Below are positions 37,186-41,438 of a stretch of DNA of 64,000 bases, one piece after another. The notes below the pieces were generated by a model. That model worked only from the letters and a program-made list of their open reading frames with translations, was not told the origin of the DNA and did no database searches. Every line of letters starts with the position of its first letter. Within the stretch, counting starts at the first letter, position 1. The DNA is from Kordiimonas sp. SCSIO 12610 (GTDB lineage Bacteria; Pseudomonadota; Alphaproteobacteria; Sphingomonadales; Kordiimonadaceae), in contig NZ_CP073747.1 of the NCBI RefSeq assembly GCF_024398015.1, forward strand, positions 2,973,001-3,037,000, given 5' to 3'. The translations under genes and the position numbers were made by a program.

Positions 37186-37264
37186 TTGATTTCTAGACGG
37201 ATCATTCCATTATATCGCAAACTCATCAAATAAATGAGTCGACTGTCAACTTATGGAGAAAACT

Positions 37265-37564
37265 ATGACACTTGAAAAAATCACTAACGAAATGCGGTCA
37301 CGCGTTGGCGCACACTCCCCTATTTCTGCAATCATTAAGTTCGATTTTGGCGATGATGGCGTTGTACGAGTGGACGGCAAGGCTTCTCCTACCGTAGTTG
37401 ACAACGAAAATAGCGACGCAGATTGCACAGTTAAGGTTTCCATGGAGAACTTCATCAAAATTGCAGAGGGTGACCTGAACCCACAAATGGCGTTCATGAC
37501 TGGCAAAATCAAAGTTGAGGGCGATATGAGCCTTGCAATGCAGCTCGGAAGCATTCTGGGCTAA
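37265..37564 (+). CDS. SCP2 sterol-transfer-domain protein
   Basis: The 99-residue protein is a single SCP2-type lipid-binding domain. It has the strand pattern VVRVDGKASPTV and CTVKVSMENFIKIAEGDLNPQMAFMTGKIKVEGDMSLAM, where the MAFMTGKIKVEGD block is the family hallmark. Such domains bind lipids or fatty acyl-CoA in a hydrophobic tunnel. I use the ATG at 37265 with GGAG upstream, since the ATG at 37253 overlaps that site. It lies between an AsmA-like and a DUF1499-like gene. Confidence 0.88.
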   Translation: MTLEKITNEMRSRVGAHSPISAIIKFDFGDDGVVRVDGKASPTVVDNENSDADCTVKVSMENFIKIAEGDLNPQMAFMTGKIKVEGDMSLAMQLGSILG

Positions 37565-37585: not shown

Positions 37586-38122
37586 GTGCTCGAACGAATA
37601 AGAGGCTACATATTCTGGGTTTGCGGCGGCGTTGTTCTCTTGGGTGCGTTAGGGTACATCTTTGCCCTGACCGGCTCAGGTCAGTCGCTATTTGGCTCAA
37701 ACGACGGTACTTTAGAGCCGACAAATTTTGCACAGCTCACTTTCTCGACCAACGAGAATGGATACCTTCTCTGCAACAAATCAACGTGTCCGAACGCAAA
37801 TCCGAACAATATTGCTGCCAGATTTCTTTCCAATATCCGGTCTATTCGTTTGAATTTAGCAGATTATGCGGACAATAACCCACTAGTAAGACTAAGGTCA
37901 TTTGACCCGACAAATAATCAATTCGAGTTTCTGGAGCGATCGCCCGGGCGTCCCTATCCTGCAATTGTCAGTATTAAATTAACTGAAGCCCCTAACCAAG
38001 CAACAGATATTGCGATATACACTTATCAACCCATTGGTAACAGTACACCGGACGATCATAAGGACAGGGTTGAAAAATGGTTGCGCGTTTTAACAAACAG
38101 ACTTGCAAATTTTAATAATTAA
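37586..38122 (+). CDS. DUF1499-like membrane-anchored protein
   Basis: The 178-residue product has one membrane helix at residues 6-27 and then a probable periplasmic domain. The stretch FLERSPGRPYPAIVSIKL and the end TDIAIYTYQPIG...KDRVEKWLRVL follow the layout of DUF1499 proteins, in which an RS.+R.PD strand precedes a RV..WL helix. Two cysteines (LLCNKSTCP) could form a disulfide. It starts at GTG 37586 behind AGAGG, since the nearby ATG is out of frame. The function is unknown. Confidence 0.65.
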   Translation: MLERIRGYIFWVCGGVVLLGALGYIFALTGSGQSLFGSNDGTLEPTNFAQLTFSTNENGYLLCNKSTCPNANPNNIAARFLSNIRSIRLNLADYADNNPLVRLRSFDPTNNQFEFLERSPGRPYPAIVSIKLTEAPNQATDIAIYTYQPIGNSTPDDHKDRVEKWLRVLTNRLANFNN

Positions 38123-38144: not shown

Positions 38145-38534
38145 TTATCTGACAATTGAGTTGCGACCGATAATGGTTTCTCTAATGCTCGACGCAGTAT
38201 TTGTATAACTACCTATCGCTCGCTCGATATTTGAAGGCGCGGGAAAAGTGCGAGCCGCCTCTGCTTCCTGAGTGCGAGTTTCTGCAAGCGCAAACAACAC
38301 AGGCGTTGACAGAAGCGCGCTCCCACCAGGGATGGGGGCATCACGCAATGTTGCAACATTATTATCAAGGGCACCCGTATTCAAAAACTGAGAATCTTGA
38401 AGAACTGGTCCAAAACCTGATTCTCGGTCGCTTAATTGTTGTGAACGTTGCGCAGGAGAAAATGAGCTGACACTTCGCGTACGCGAACCAGCTGACAGTA
38501 TCTGCCCTCCAGAATTAACCGAAGTTTCTGTCAT
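38145..38534 (-). CDS. Small protein of unknown function, Ser/Ala-rich
   Basis: I do not recognise this 129-residue product. It has no signal peptide, no membrane helix and no cysteine. The sequence is low in hydrophobic residues at the start (MTETSVNSGGQILSAG) and has a more ordered C-terminal half ending SSIRETIIGRNSIVR. It converges on the DUF1499-like gene at 22 bases. The reading frame is long for its strand and no better frame overlaps it, but the ribosome site (GGAT) is weak. Confidence 0.5.
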   Translation of the reverse strand: MTETSVNSGGQILSAGSRTRSVSSFSPAQRSQQLSDRESGFGPVLQDSQFLNTGALDNNVATLRDAPIPGGSALLSTPVLFALAETRTQEAEAARTFPAPSNIERAIGSYTNTASSIRETIIGRNSIVR

Positions 38535-38867: not shown

Positions 38868-39722
38868 ATGGATAATAATACTTTAGCGATTTATATTCAC
38901 GAACTTCGCAATCATTGCCTACATGTTCAAACTTCTTTTGATCTATTCAATCAGGCGATGGTCAATCAATCCACAGGCGGAGTGCTATATGGTGGCCAAA
39001 TGGTTCTCATCCCTGTTTCCCAAATCGCAGCGCTTCTGTGGCCGACGCGCGCACGTGCACGTGCTCGGGGCGAGTCATTGCGTAAAACATTACAACTTCC
39101 AGAAAAGCATCCTTTAAATGACCGCAGACTTAGCGAATTATGGGAACGTTCTGATGAAAAATTTGAGGAATGGATTTCGTCTACCAAGAATGCACAAGTT
39201 GTTTTTGATTTTGTAGGCGATCCAAGAACAATCCATGAAAGTGTAACCGAGAAAAGCATTTACAGAGCTTATCACCCGGAAACCAACATTTTCTACTATC
39301 GTGGTATTGCTTATAACCTGAAGGGTATAGCCCAAGCACTCAGTGACGTCGCAGGTCGCATTAATGCTCTTTATCGTCAACTCTTCCCGGAGCACGCAAA
39401 AGCTGAAGATGAAGCTATTCGTCAACGCCAAGCAGAAATTGCCAAAGCACAAGCAGAAGCAGAAAAAGCCGCAGCCGATGAGCAATCTGTCGCTGATACA
39501 AAAACGGCTGAATCAGATGAATCTGCAGAGCAGGCTGCCAAAGCATCAGCGAAGACAGCAGCCCCAAAAAAGGCAACGGCTAAAAAACCTGCTGCGAAAA
39601 AGGCACCGACGAAAAAAGCCCCTACGAAAGCTACTGCCAAGAAAACAACTACCGCAAAAACAGCAGCCAAGTCGAGCACTGCAAAGAAAGCGCCCGCTAA
39701 AAAGGCAACCACAAAGAAATAA
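38868..39722 (+). CDS. Unknown protein with a histone-H1-like Lys/Ala/Pro tail
   Basis: The 284-residue protein has three parts. Residues 1-180 form a folded-looking domain of unknown family with an Arg run (ARARARGESLRK). Residues 180-220 are a charged helix rich in Ala/Glu/Gln. From about 222 the tail consists of AKK, PKK and TKKAP repeats to the end, very like histone H1 and bacterial H1-like proteins, and would bind DNA or RNA nonspecifically. No membrane segment is seen. The role may be nucleoid or RNA related, but this is inference. A perfect hairpin follows 10 bases after the stop. Confidence 0.75.
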   Translation: MDNNTLAIYIHELRNHCLHVQTSFDLFNQAMVNQSTGGVLYGGQMVLIPVSQIAALLWPTRARARARGESLRKTLQLPEKHPLNDRRLSELWERSDEKFEEWISSTKNAQVVFDFVGDPRTIHESVTEKSIYRAYHPETNIFYYRGIAYNLKGIAQALSDVAGRINALYRQLFPEHAKAEDEAIRQRQAEIAKAQAEAEKAAADEQSVADTKTAESDESAEQAAKASAKTAAPKKATAKKPAAKKAPTKKAPTKATAKKTTTAKTAAKSSTAKKAPAKKATTKK

Positions 39723-39732
39723 AAACTGTGTA

Positions 39733-39767
39733 ATTGCAAGAGAGCAATATGGCTTCTCTTGCAATTC
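39733..39767. other. Perfect intergenic hairpin without U tract
   Basis: AATTGCAAGAGA (39733-39744) and TCTCTTGCAATT (39756-39767) form a 12-base perfect stem with an 11-base loop, 10 bases after the stop of the histone-tail gene. The sequence after it is CTACGGC, so it is not a textbook terminator. It may stabilise the 3' end of the mRNA or act as a U-less terminator. Confidence 0.5.
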
Positions 39768-39828
39768 TACGGCATAATACCATACTATTTATGGGTAATT
39801 GATACGCGAAATCGAAATGGATTTAGAT

Positions 39829-40191
39829 ATGAGAAAATTCACCGCACCGCTTCTAGCGATTTCTATAGTGGGCTCCTCGCCTCTTATGGCTGCGGACTGT
39901 GGAGAACCTCCTCAAGATAAACCAAATCTGCCAAAAACATCTCAGCAACTTACTGCCGATGATATCCGTACAGCCAGAAACGCTGTTGTAAGCTATTCCA
40001 GTAAAGTTACTGATTATCTTACATGTATGGACAATTGGATTGTTAAACTGCGGCCGTATATGACCAAAGAGCAATCTGCTCGATTCTCGGATGATACCGC
40101 CAATCTTCACGAAGATCGTATTTCACTTGAACAACAAATGAATGAAATCATCCGTGAATACCGCCGTAGTCGCCGTTCCAACAATAGTTAA
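39829..40191 (+). CDS. Small secreted protein of unknown function
   Basis: The 120-residue product starts with a signal peptide, MRKFTAPLLAISIVGSSPLMA, and is probably periplasmic. The mature part has two cysteines (ADCGEPP and LTCMDNW), which could pair, and is otherwise helical and charged, ending with an Arg-rich RRSRRSNNS. I use ATG 39829, preceded by GGA, which puts the signal peptide first; ATG 39817 is an alternative. No family recognised. Confidence 0.68.
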   Translation: MRKFTAPLLAISIVGSSPLMAADCGEPPQDKPNLPKTSQQLTADDIRTARNAVVSYSSKVTDYLTCMDNWIVKLRPYMTKEQSARFSDDTANLHEDRISLEQQMNEIIREYRRSRRSNNS

Positions 40192-40239: not shown

Positions 40240-40298
40240 GACTTAACCTGAAACGCTTTGCATCATCACCTGGGAAGTTTATTCATGGGAGAGTGATT

Positions 40299-41438
40299 AT
40301 GCTGGCAAAGCGCGCCGTATATGATGAAGAACATCATATTTTCAGAGATTCCGTTAGAAAGTTTTTTGTAAACGAAGCAGTTCCTCACGCTGAAAAATGG
40401 AGCAAAAACGGCATAGTAGACCGTGAGTTCTGGAACAAAGCTGGCGAAGCTGGAATTCTCTGTCCTGGGCTCCCAGAGGAGTACGGTGGTATTGGTGCAG
40501 ACTATCGTATGAACTGCATAATCAACGAAGAGCAAATATATAACCGTGCTGGCGGTGCAGCCCTAGCAGTACATTCAGACATTGTAGCTCCATATCTTCT
40601 TCACTATGGAACAGAAGAGATTAAATCAAAATTCCTACCCAAAATGGTTACTGGAGAGATGGTAGGCGCAATTGCCATGACCGAACCAGGCACCGGAAGT
40701 GATTTACAATCTGTCAGGACTACAGCCGTCAAAGACGGCGATGAATATGTGATAAATGGCTCCAAGACATTCATCTCTAATGGTCAAAACTGTGACTTTG
40801 TTATTGTTGTTGCTAAGACAGACCCAAGCGAGGGGGCGAAAGGAACCAGCCTCATTATAGTTGAGGCGGACAGGGCCGGCTTTCAACGAGGGCGCAACCT
40901 TGAAAAAATCGGCCAACATTCTTCAGACACATCTGAATTGTTTTTTGACAATGTAAGAGTTCCTCAGGAGAATTTAATCGGGCACGAAAATGCGGGCTTC
41001 ATGTATTTAATGAAAGAACTGCCCCAAGAGAGATTATCAATCGGTATAATAGCCATGGCGGGGGCACAGCGTGCTTTTGATATTACCAATCAATATATCA
41101 AAGAGCGCAAGGCGTTCGGTCGCCCAATCGCAAACTTTCAAAATACCCGCTTTAAAATGGCAGAGATGAAAACTGAAATCGAAGTTGGATGGGCATTCGT
41201 TGATCAGTGCCTTTCGAGACATATTAAAGGAGAATTAGACGCTGTAGGCGGTGCCATGTCCAAATTATGGTGTAGCGAAATGCAAGGCCGTGTCGTTGAC
41301 CAATGTCTGCAATTCCATGGTGGCTACGGATTTATGGCAGAATATGAAATCAGTCATCACTATACTGATTCTCGGGTTCAACGTATATATGGCGGAACAT
41401 CTGAGATCATGAAAGAACTTATCGGGCGTTCGCTGTAA
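40299..41438 (+). CDS. Acyl-CoA dehydrogenase, long-chain (LCAD)-like
   Basis: This FAD enzyme of 379 residues introduces a trans-2 double bond in acyl-CoA. The signatures AIAMTEPGTGSDLQ, ERKAFGRPI, QFHGGYGFM and IYGGTSEIMKELIGRSL agree with the long-chain subgroup. In that group the catalytic base is a Glu in the helix before ERKAFG. Here the matching position, as I align it by eye, reads Asp (D261 in RAFDITNQYIKERKAFG). I use ATG 40299 with GGGAG upstream and not GTG 40293. No electron-transfer or beta-oxidation genes flank it. Confidence 0.88.
   Translation: MLAKRAVYDEEHHIFRDSVRKFFVNEAVPHAEKWSKNGIVDREFWNKAGEAGILCPGLPEEYGGIGADYRMNCIINEEQIYNRAGGAALAVHSDIVAPYLLHYGTEEIKSKFLPKMVTGEMVGAIAMTEPGTGSDLQSVRTTAVKDGDEYVINGSKTFISNGQNCDFVIVVAKTDPSEGAKGTSLIIVEADRAGFQRGRNLEKIGQHSSDTSELFFDNVRVPQENLIGHENAGFMYLMKELPQERLSIGIIAMAGAQRAFDITNQYIKERKAFGRPIANFQNTRFKMAEMKTEIEVGWAFVDQCLSRHIKGELDAVGGAMSKLWCSEMQGRVVDQCLQFHGGYGFMAEYEISHHYTDSRVQRIYGGTSEIMKELIGRSL

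Follow-up and report, generated by a model that had tools for sequence, protein, structure and literature searches.

A conserved domain with a variable lysine-rich tail, probably of HEPN ancestry, in Kordiimonas sp. SCSIO 12610 and, encoded antisense in RcGTA-like clusters, in its relatives

What could a bacterial protein be doing that joins a domain of no recognised family to a tail resembling that of histone H1, and how did its gene come to lie where it does? The gene was found in a window, i.e. the whole stretch of 64,000 nucleotides that was analysed, which spans 2.973-3.037 Mb of the 3.50 Mb one-contig genome of Kordiimonas sp. SCSIO 12610; the open reading frame reported for it by the first-pass annotation is present, with its full 284 codons (Table 1). 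Related genomes were sorted into families f1 (the window's family) to f8, with G000 denoting the window's own genome. The reading favoured here, to which we assign a probability of about 0.5, is that the gene is an antisense passenger of a cluster related to that of the gene transfer agent RcGTA, and that its product is a domesticated, catalytically degenerate HEPN-like domain predicted to bind nucleic acid through its tail.

Table 1. Positions of the gene under study, its parts and its neighbours in the window.
Feature	Position	Strand	Description
SCP2-like gene, left flank	37253..37564	+	PF02036, E 1.8e-18
178-aa protein, left flank	37586..38122	+	No Pfam match; beside SCP2 also in G034, G045 and G050
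129-aa ORF between left flank and gene	38145-38534	-	No Pfam match
Gene under study	38868..39722	+	284 aa, ATG start; conserved helical domain and Lys/Ala/Thr/Pro tail
Conserved domain, residues 1-177	38868..39398	+	AlphaFold2 model; invariant residues
Codons 89-94 (S-E-L-W-E-R)	39132..39149	+	Aligns with the cousins' R-[NDH]-x3-H; degenerate
Charged, Ala-rich linker, residues 178-219	39399..39524	+	Read from the translation
H1-like tail, residues 220-284	39525..39719	+	Composition
c9, second passenger, ~120-130 aa	39799..40191	+	No Pfam match; adjoins the gene in f1
Acyl-CoA dehydrogenase gene, right flank	40293..41438	+	PF00441/PF02771/PF02770

The domain and its family

The N-terminal 180 residues had been described as resembling no known family, and this description held: no Pfam or NCBIfam family was matched above chance and no PHROG was found, sequence searches of the PDB returned nothing with support for the domain, and Foldseek gave no match to the domain model at E ≤ 0.001. 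Pfam matches to ADH_zinc_N, GAGA_bind, HC2 and Hid1, NCBIfam matches falling in the low-complexity tail, and PADLOC matches with E-values of 0.013-0.02 were all taken as chance.

The domain defines a genuine family, conserved and under purifying selection, and the annotation of an unrecognised domain fused to an H1-like tail was upheld. A single-copy match was present in 51 of 59 related genomes; the eight genomes without the gene comprise one from f3, all six sampled from f5, and one from f2 with a completeness of 85%. The closest named relative found (89% over the domain) is L031, from an uncultured Kordiimonas sp. Further afield, a single-protein search of a class-wide sample matched one of 289 genomes, namely the window's own, and a profile search of the phylum matched ten of 398 genomes at E ≤ 0.01, four of them members of the order; a further search of this phylum by profile matched six of the 398 at E ≤ 0.001. 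Ten residues (M1, E12, W58, R67, R72, L83, D96, D114, R133 and G146) are invariant in 50 distinct members. The AlphaFold2 model of the domain, built from 14 sequences (mean pLDDT 94.8, pTM 0.86), consists of helices at residues 3-32, 36-57, 62-74, 86-93, 95-105 and 151-172 and a beta hairpin at 133-150. The ratio dN/dS ranged from 0.015 to 0.13 in the six computable pairs, synonymous sites being saturated in two of the eight, including that of the window and L031.

Place in RcGTA-like clusters and retention in the window's family

In f4, f6, f7 and three of the five f8 genomes, a phage-like head-tail cluster harbours the gene in antisense orientation; for the genes of this cluster we use g numbers that we take to follow RcGTA usage. 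Direct searches for g13, g14 and g15 placed the gene between a g13-like hub gene and a g14-like NlpC/P60 gene, with g15 beyond, at 14 of 14 genome loci; the identical arrangement was seen in all three IMG/VR contigs, and a gene fragment in G048 also adjoins g13. In gene-less clusters for comparison (one from f3, four from f5), g13 and g14 are adjacent with no insert, as they are in the second clusters of G039 and G050. Tail proteins at locus L086 match Pfam Phage-tail_3 with Rcc01698_C, NlpC/P60, a baseplate-hub domain and DUF2460, and G034 and G050 have matches to terminase or portal, protease, capsid and connector. In these two genomes the RcGTA-like head and tail genes, including g11-g15-like ones, stand in order at a conserved chromosomal place, and the left flank of the window lies beside the cluster in both and in G045. 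Judged from its genes, the cluster is RcGTA-like (gene transfer agent-like).

Some clusters have further features of their own. A g12-like protein of ~690 aa (L086, 4425-6500), presumably longer than the g12 of RcGTA, is a fusion of DUF2460 to a non-contractile tail-sheath TIM barrel; the Pfam scan was made at L086, and homologues occur in linked clusters. One reading frame of G050 (L122, 6416-8692) combines a phage portal domain with a Pesticin-type lysozyme-like domain, and G046 has two near-identical clusters (L131, 2415-2430 kb; L103 and L112) in which g13 is split by ~800 bases and which have no insert.

When four distant cousins of the family (see below) were used to root a tree of 39 rows, f4 and f8 lay nearest the root, and three changes were required between members linked to the cluster and members that are not, the linked ones being basal; the supports of the backbone are moderate (84/64, 81/81 and 89/82) and the outgroup branches long.

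In f1, the cluster is gone from this ancestral place, and the gene and a second passenger, c9, remain between the old flanks. The order in the window is CheZ-like gene, HAD, EAL, DUF748, SCP2, 178-aa protein, 129-aa ORF, gene under study, c9 and acyl-CoA dehydrogenase, and the dehydrogenase gene is found beyond the other end of the cluster in G050 and of the reduced clusters of G029 and G042. Among 15 cluster-linked genomes, the SCP2 gene lies within 8 kb of the gene on the same strand in nine, far off in two, and on another contig in four. In all 29 f1 genomes the second passenger comes directly after the gene and shares its strand; at the ancestral place it lies antisense between terminase and portal in six of the seven genomes with both in view (G031, weakly, G034, G042, G047, G050 and G056; not G051). 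Its hydrophobic start and cysteine residues, noted by eye, suggest that c9 may be exported. Reduced clusters were seen in f2: G047 has kept terminase, c9, portal and the gene, G042 the same together with a protease/tail remnant, and G029 terminase, protease, capsid and other tail-like genes, searches for portal and c9 in the latter cluster giving no match. A g12-like gene was found in none of the 29 f1 and none of the six f2 genomes, and g13 in one f1 genome (G028, a weak match of 24% identity) and no f2 genome. The 129-aa ORF to the left of the gene is conserved in f1 loci alone (eight loci).

That f1 might be free of all phage-like genes was considered and rejected, since capsid homologues occur at other loci in 23 of the 29 f1 genomes and terminase homologues in 26; the loss is thus limited to the cluster at the ancestral place. 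In G000, a divergent phage-like cluster with homologues of terminase, portal, protease, capsid and connector occupies 975-1015 kb (L136 and L137); at ~984-999 kb, its capsid is 47% identical to that of G034 and its terminase and portal genes are adjacent with no c9 between them, and many unrelated genes are inserted further on. Because such homologues persist elsewhere in most f1 genomes, the gene might still serve a phage-like element. On such a view it would function within the gene-transfer or phage-like system, for example as a regulator of g14-g15, an immunity factor for particles or lysis, or a DNA-handling protein, and in f1 it would now work with the divergent cluster at the other locus. 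The gene stands head to head with g14 at all 14 linked loci, which is the usual layout of a divergent regulator. We nevertheless regard such a role as unlikely: the gene is present in G002, G015 and G022, which have neither a capsid nor a terminase match, and in G035, G046 and G055, which have no terminase match, and it is absent from the clusters read at the second place (in G000 and G009).

The lysine-rich tail

An H1-like tail of about 60 residues had been noted by the first-pass annotation and does exist; its composition, however, is Lys/Ala/Thr/Pro rather than Lys/Ala/Pro, the last 65 residues comprising 22 A, 21 K, 12 T, 5 P, 3 S, 1 Q and 1 E. It is rich in lysine, alanine and proline and of low complexity, as in H1-like proteins, with threonine above the level of the classical repeats. 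The arrays that Tandem Repeats Finder reported in the tail DNA were all short (2.1 to 3.3 copies), and the lysine-rich tails of relatives differ in their other residues and in length, so that the tail is more than a DNA microsatellite. A stable stem-loop at ~39732-39767 lies between the gene and c9 (interval 39723-39834); it may not be a terminator, as no run of T follows it.

The tail is variable and no fixed part of the family. With at least 12 Lys among the last 50 residues as the threshold, and the end-of-contig fragment in G048 left out, it is present in 34 of 50 homologues and missing in 16 (f2 3/5, f4 0/3, f6 3/6, f7 2/2 and f8 3/5 with a tail). Absence from close homologues, which had been named beforehand as grounds for giving up a chromatin-like role, applies in part, as six of the 29 f1 members are tail-less and 23 carry a tail. 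By eye, none of the ten aligned cousins has such a tail. That the tail is merely a disordered end of drifting composition, with no function in binding nucleic acid, would fit its absence from a third of the homologues, its variable length, and the comparison of the window with L031, in which pN is 0.222 in the tail and 0.073 in the domain; the retention of lysine and charge in the 34 tailed homologues despite changed letters, together with dN/dS values of 0.02 and 0.07 for the tail in two other computed pairs, makes this improbable.

Association with nucleic acid or the nucleoid would be the natural guess from such a tail, by analogy with AlgP and PhaF (available text of PMC9239181). The first-pass annotation had also raised a role in storage granules. 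If the protein positioned granules after the manner of AlgP and PhaF, the helical domain would sit on a polyphosphate or PHA granule and the tail on the nucleoid. The layout is that of Pseudomonas AlgP and PhaF, with a helical N-terminal part and a disordered Lys/Ala/Pro tail (PMC9239181), and PhaC_N is matched in the window's genome. The PHA part of the proposal was not supported: a role in PHA is disfavoured because 11 of the 51 carriers have no PhaC_N match of any kind (G004, G008, G014, G022, G029, G036, G042, G046, G047, G055 and G056). In six others (G009, G011, G017, G021, G025 and G028) the match is a short one at the end of the model, and no phasin profile of Pfam was matched at E ≤ 1. 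Given also that the place and relatives of the gene point to mobile elements, granule positioning appears decidedly improbable.

Mobile cousins, HEPN ancestry and comparison with known systems

In the phylum, the profile of the order's family identified cousins in G531 (4.6e-32), G622 (2.5e-23) and G682 (3.8e-11), and searches of plasmids added records in Rubrobacter, Alteromonas, Thiodictyon, Enterobacter, Tritonibacter, Rhodococcus and Klebsiella; matches in G451, G464 and G603 (E 9.8e-4 to 9.7e-3) were discarded as short, covering 39-45 positions. Several cousins lie on plasmids or near transposase or integrase genes, and their neighbours include a LA2681 HEPN protein, an Abi-family protein and a ToxN/AbiQ-type toxin gene, as well as ordinary genes. 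The cousins at L068-L070 had no relative in viral_contigs, and the Tritonibacter cousin had one there and none in phage records. In eight of ten aligned cousins (the Alteromonas one and G682 being 96% identical, and those of Klebsiella left out) a motif R-[NDH]-x3-H is present; it is missing in Rubrobacter and Enterobacter asburiae. The available text of PMC3710099 places the HEPN motif, Rx4-6H, where helix 3 ends and has its R followed by N, D or H; the motif of the cousins conforms in its spacing, in the residue next to the R and in lying where a helix ends.

Alignment of the order's family with the cousins by hhalign brought the motif columns into register, at a probability of 99.9% (E 1.9e-33), and in the window model these columns fall at the break between helices 86-93 and 95-105. 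The usual pair is degenerate throughout the order: R89-x4-H94 occurs in none of the 50 members, and residues 84-100 of the window protein contain no R-x4-6-H, residue 94 being R. The same source counts motif-less domains as HEPN members, as likely inactive binders of nucleic acid, so loss of the motif bears on activity more than on ancestry (PMC3710099). RNase activity would probably have gone, and a binding role in the host may be what remains. The loss of activity may be incomplete in some members, since spacers of six occur in some HEPN families (PMC3710099) and R87-x6-H94 is present in 17 of the 50, the window not among them.

The model of a motif-bearing cousin (pLDDT 85.1) matched 3jrt, listed as an integron HEPN in PMC3710099, with Z 8.4 over 133 residues (rmsd 4.5), in second place behind a designed protein (8.6) and near a p130Cas domain (8.1), and matched 4nqf with Z 5.8; the window model gave Z 6.2 for 7bxo and 5.6 for both 8xeh and 4nqf, with unrelated bundles up to 8.1, so that the values of both models lie within the background of helical bundles, tied with unrelated proteins. 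Foldseek returned no match to the cousin model at E ≤ 0.001, and the Pfam HEPN profiles matched neither the window protein nor the seven cousins scanned, single-sequence scans being weak for divergent HEPN families. Because Z values of this size are background for helical bundles, HEPN ancestry of the domain is likely and not proved. That the protein is still an active HEPN-type RNase, using R87-x6-H94 or R14-x4-H19 as an alternative site with the tail aiding RNA binding, is highly improbable, for although some HEPN families are described as having their histidine elsewhere (PMC3710099) and R14 and H19 (in HELRNQCxH) occur together in 26 of 50 members, the window included, position 19 is otherwise mostly Y or F, the window has R94, and neither pair is conserved across the family, unlike the ten invariant residues; R14-x4-H19 was accordingly kept as a rival site only.

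On the reading of a domesticated antisense passenger, the domain and the mobile accessory proteins with the HEPN RNase signature would share a common ancestor. In a forebear shared by several families the gene would have arrived, reversed, between g13 and g14; its product would have lost the usual catalytic Arg/His pair, and in most lineages a lysine-rich H1-like tail would be part of the protein. In f1 the cluster at that place would have vanished while the gene and c9 stayed side by side under purifying selection, and the protein would now act in the host as a nucleoid- or RNA-associated binder of nucleic acid, with the domain responsible for oligomerisation or target choice and the tail for electrostatic binding. 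A bolder version, which we consider unlikely, would make the protein a bacterial analogue of linker histones: a HEPN-type toxin, captured antisense in the gene transfer agent, would have lost its active site and acquired an H1-like tail, and would have survived the agent, alongside c9, as a module serving host chromatin or stress. If the favoured reading is true, domesticated phage clusters bear host-useful passengers on the opposite strand, such passengers can persist while the coding strand decays, and it is suggested how the fold of a mobile-element RNase could have given rise to a chromatin-like protein. The question of what hosts gain from GTA-like clusters apart from particles could then be put to the test on 38868-39722 and 39799-40191, both of which have homologues in culturable Kordiimonas. 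No mention of the gene was found in the available text of PMC10883770, PMC9836097 and PMC6821227, and no report of a GTA in Kordiimonas or Kordiimonadales, or of HEPN with an H1-like tail, among the open-licence papers searched.

Among known systems, HEPN proteins such as 3jrt share the all-helical core, and the cousins share with them the R-[NDH]-x3-H at a helix end and the setting in mobile elements, 3jrt being the best-ranked natural match of the cousin model (Z 8.4), within 1 of unrelated bundles; the window family differs in having no usual R-x4-H in any of its 50 members, in the beta hairpin that separates the motif region from the last helix, and often in an H1-like tail. The weak likeness to HC2 of Chlamydia (E 0.39) and to the Burkholderia H1-like family hist_H1_lk_Burk (E 0.027) is confined to the low-complexity tail and far below cut-off, the domain having no counterpart there. 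AlgP and PhaF of Pseudomonas resemble the window protein in their helical N-terminal part and Lys/Ala/Pro-rich C-terminal tail (PMC9239181), whereas the window protein has no phasin profile and no regular KPAA repeats in its tail, and its family has its place in a GTA-like cluster and includes carriers with no PhaC_N. Conserved genes of no assigned function that are foreign to RcGTA occur in alphaproteobacterial GTA clusters, the family described in the available text of PMC9765227 lying at the place of g7; the gene described here lies antisense between g13 and g14 instead, and differs further in having been kept where the cluster is gone.
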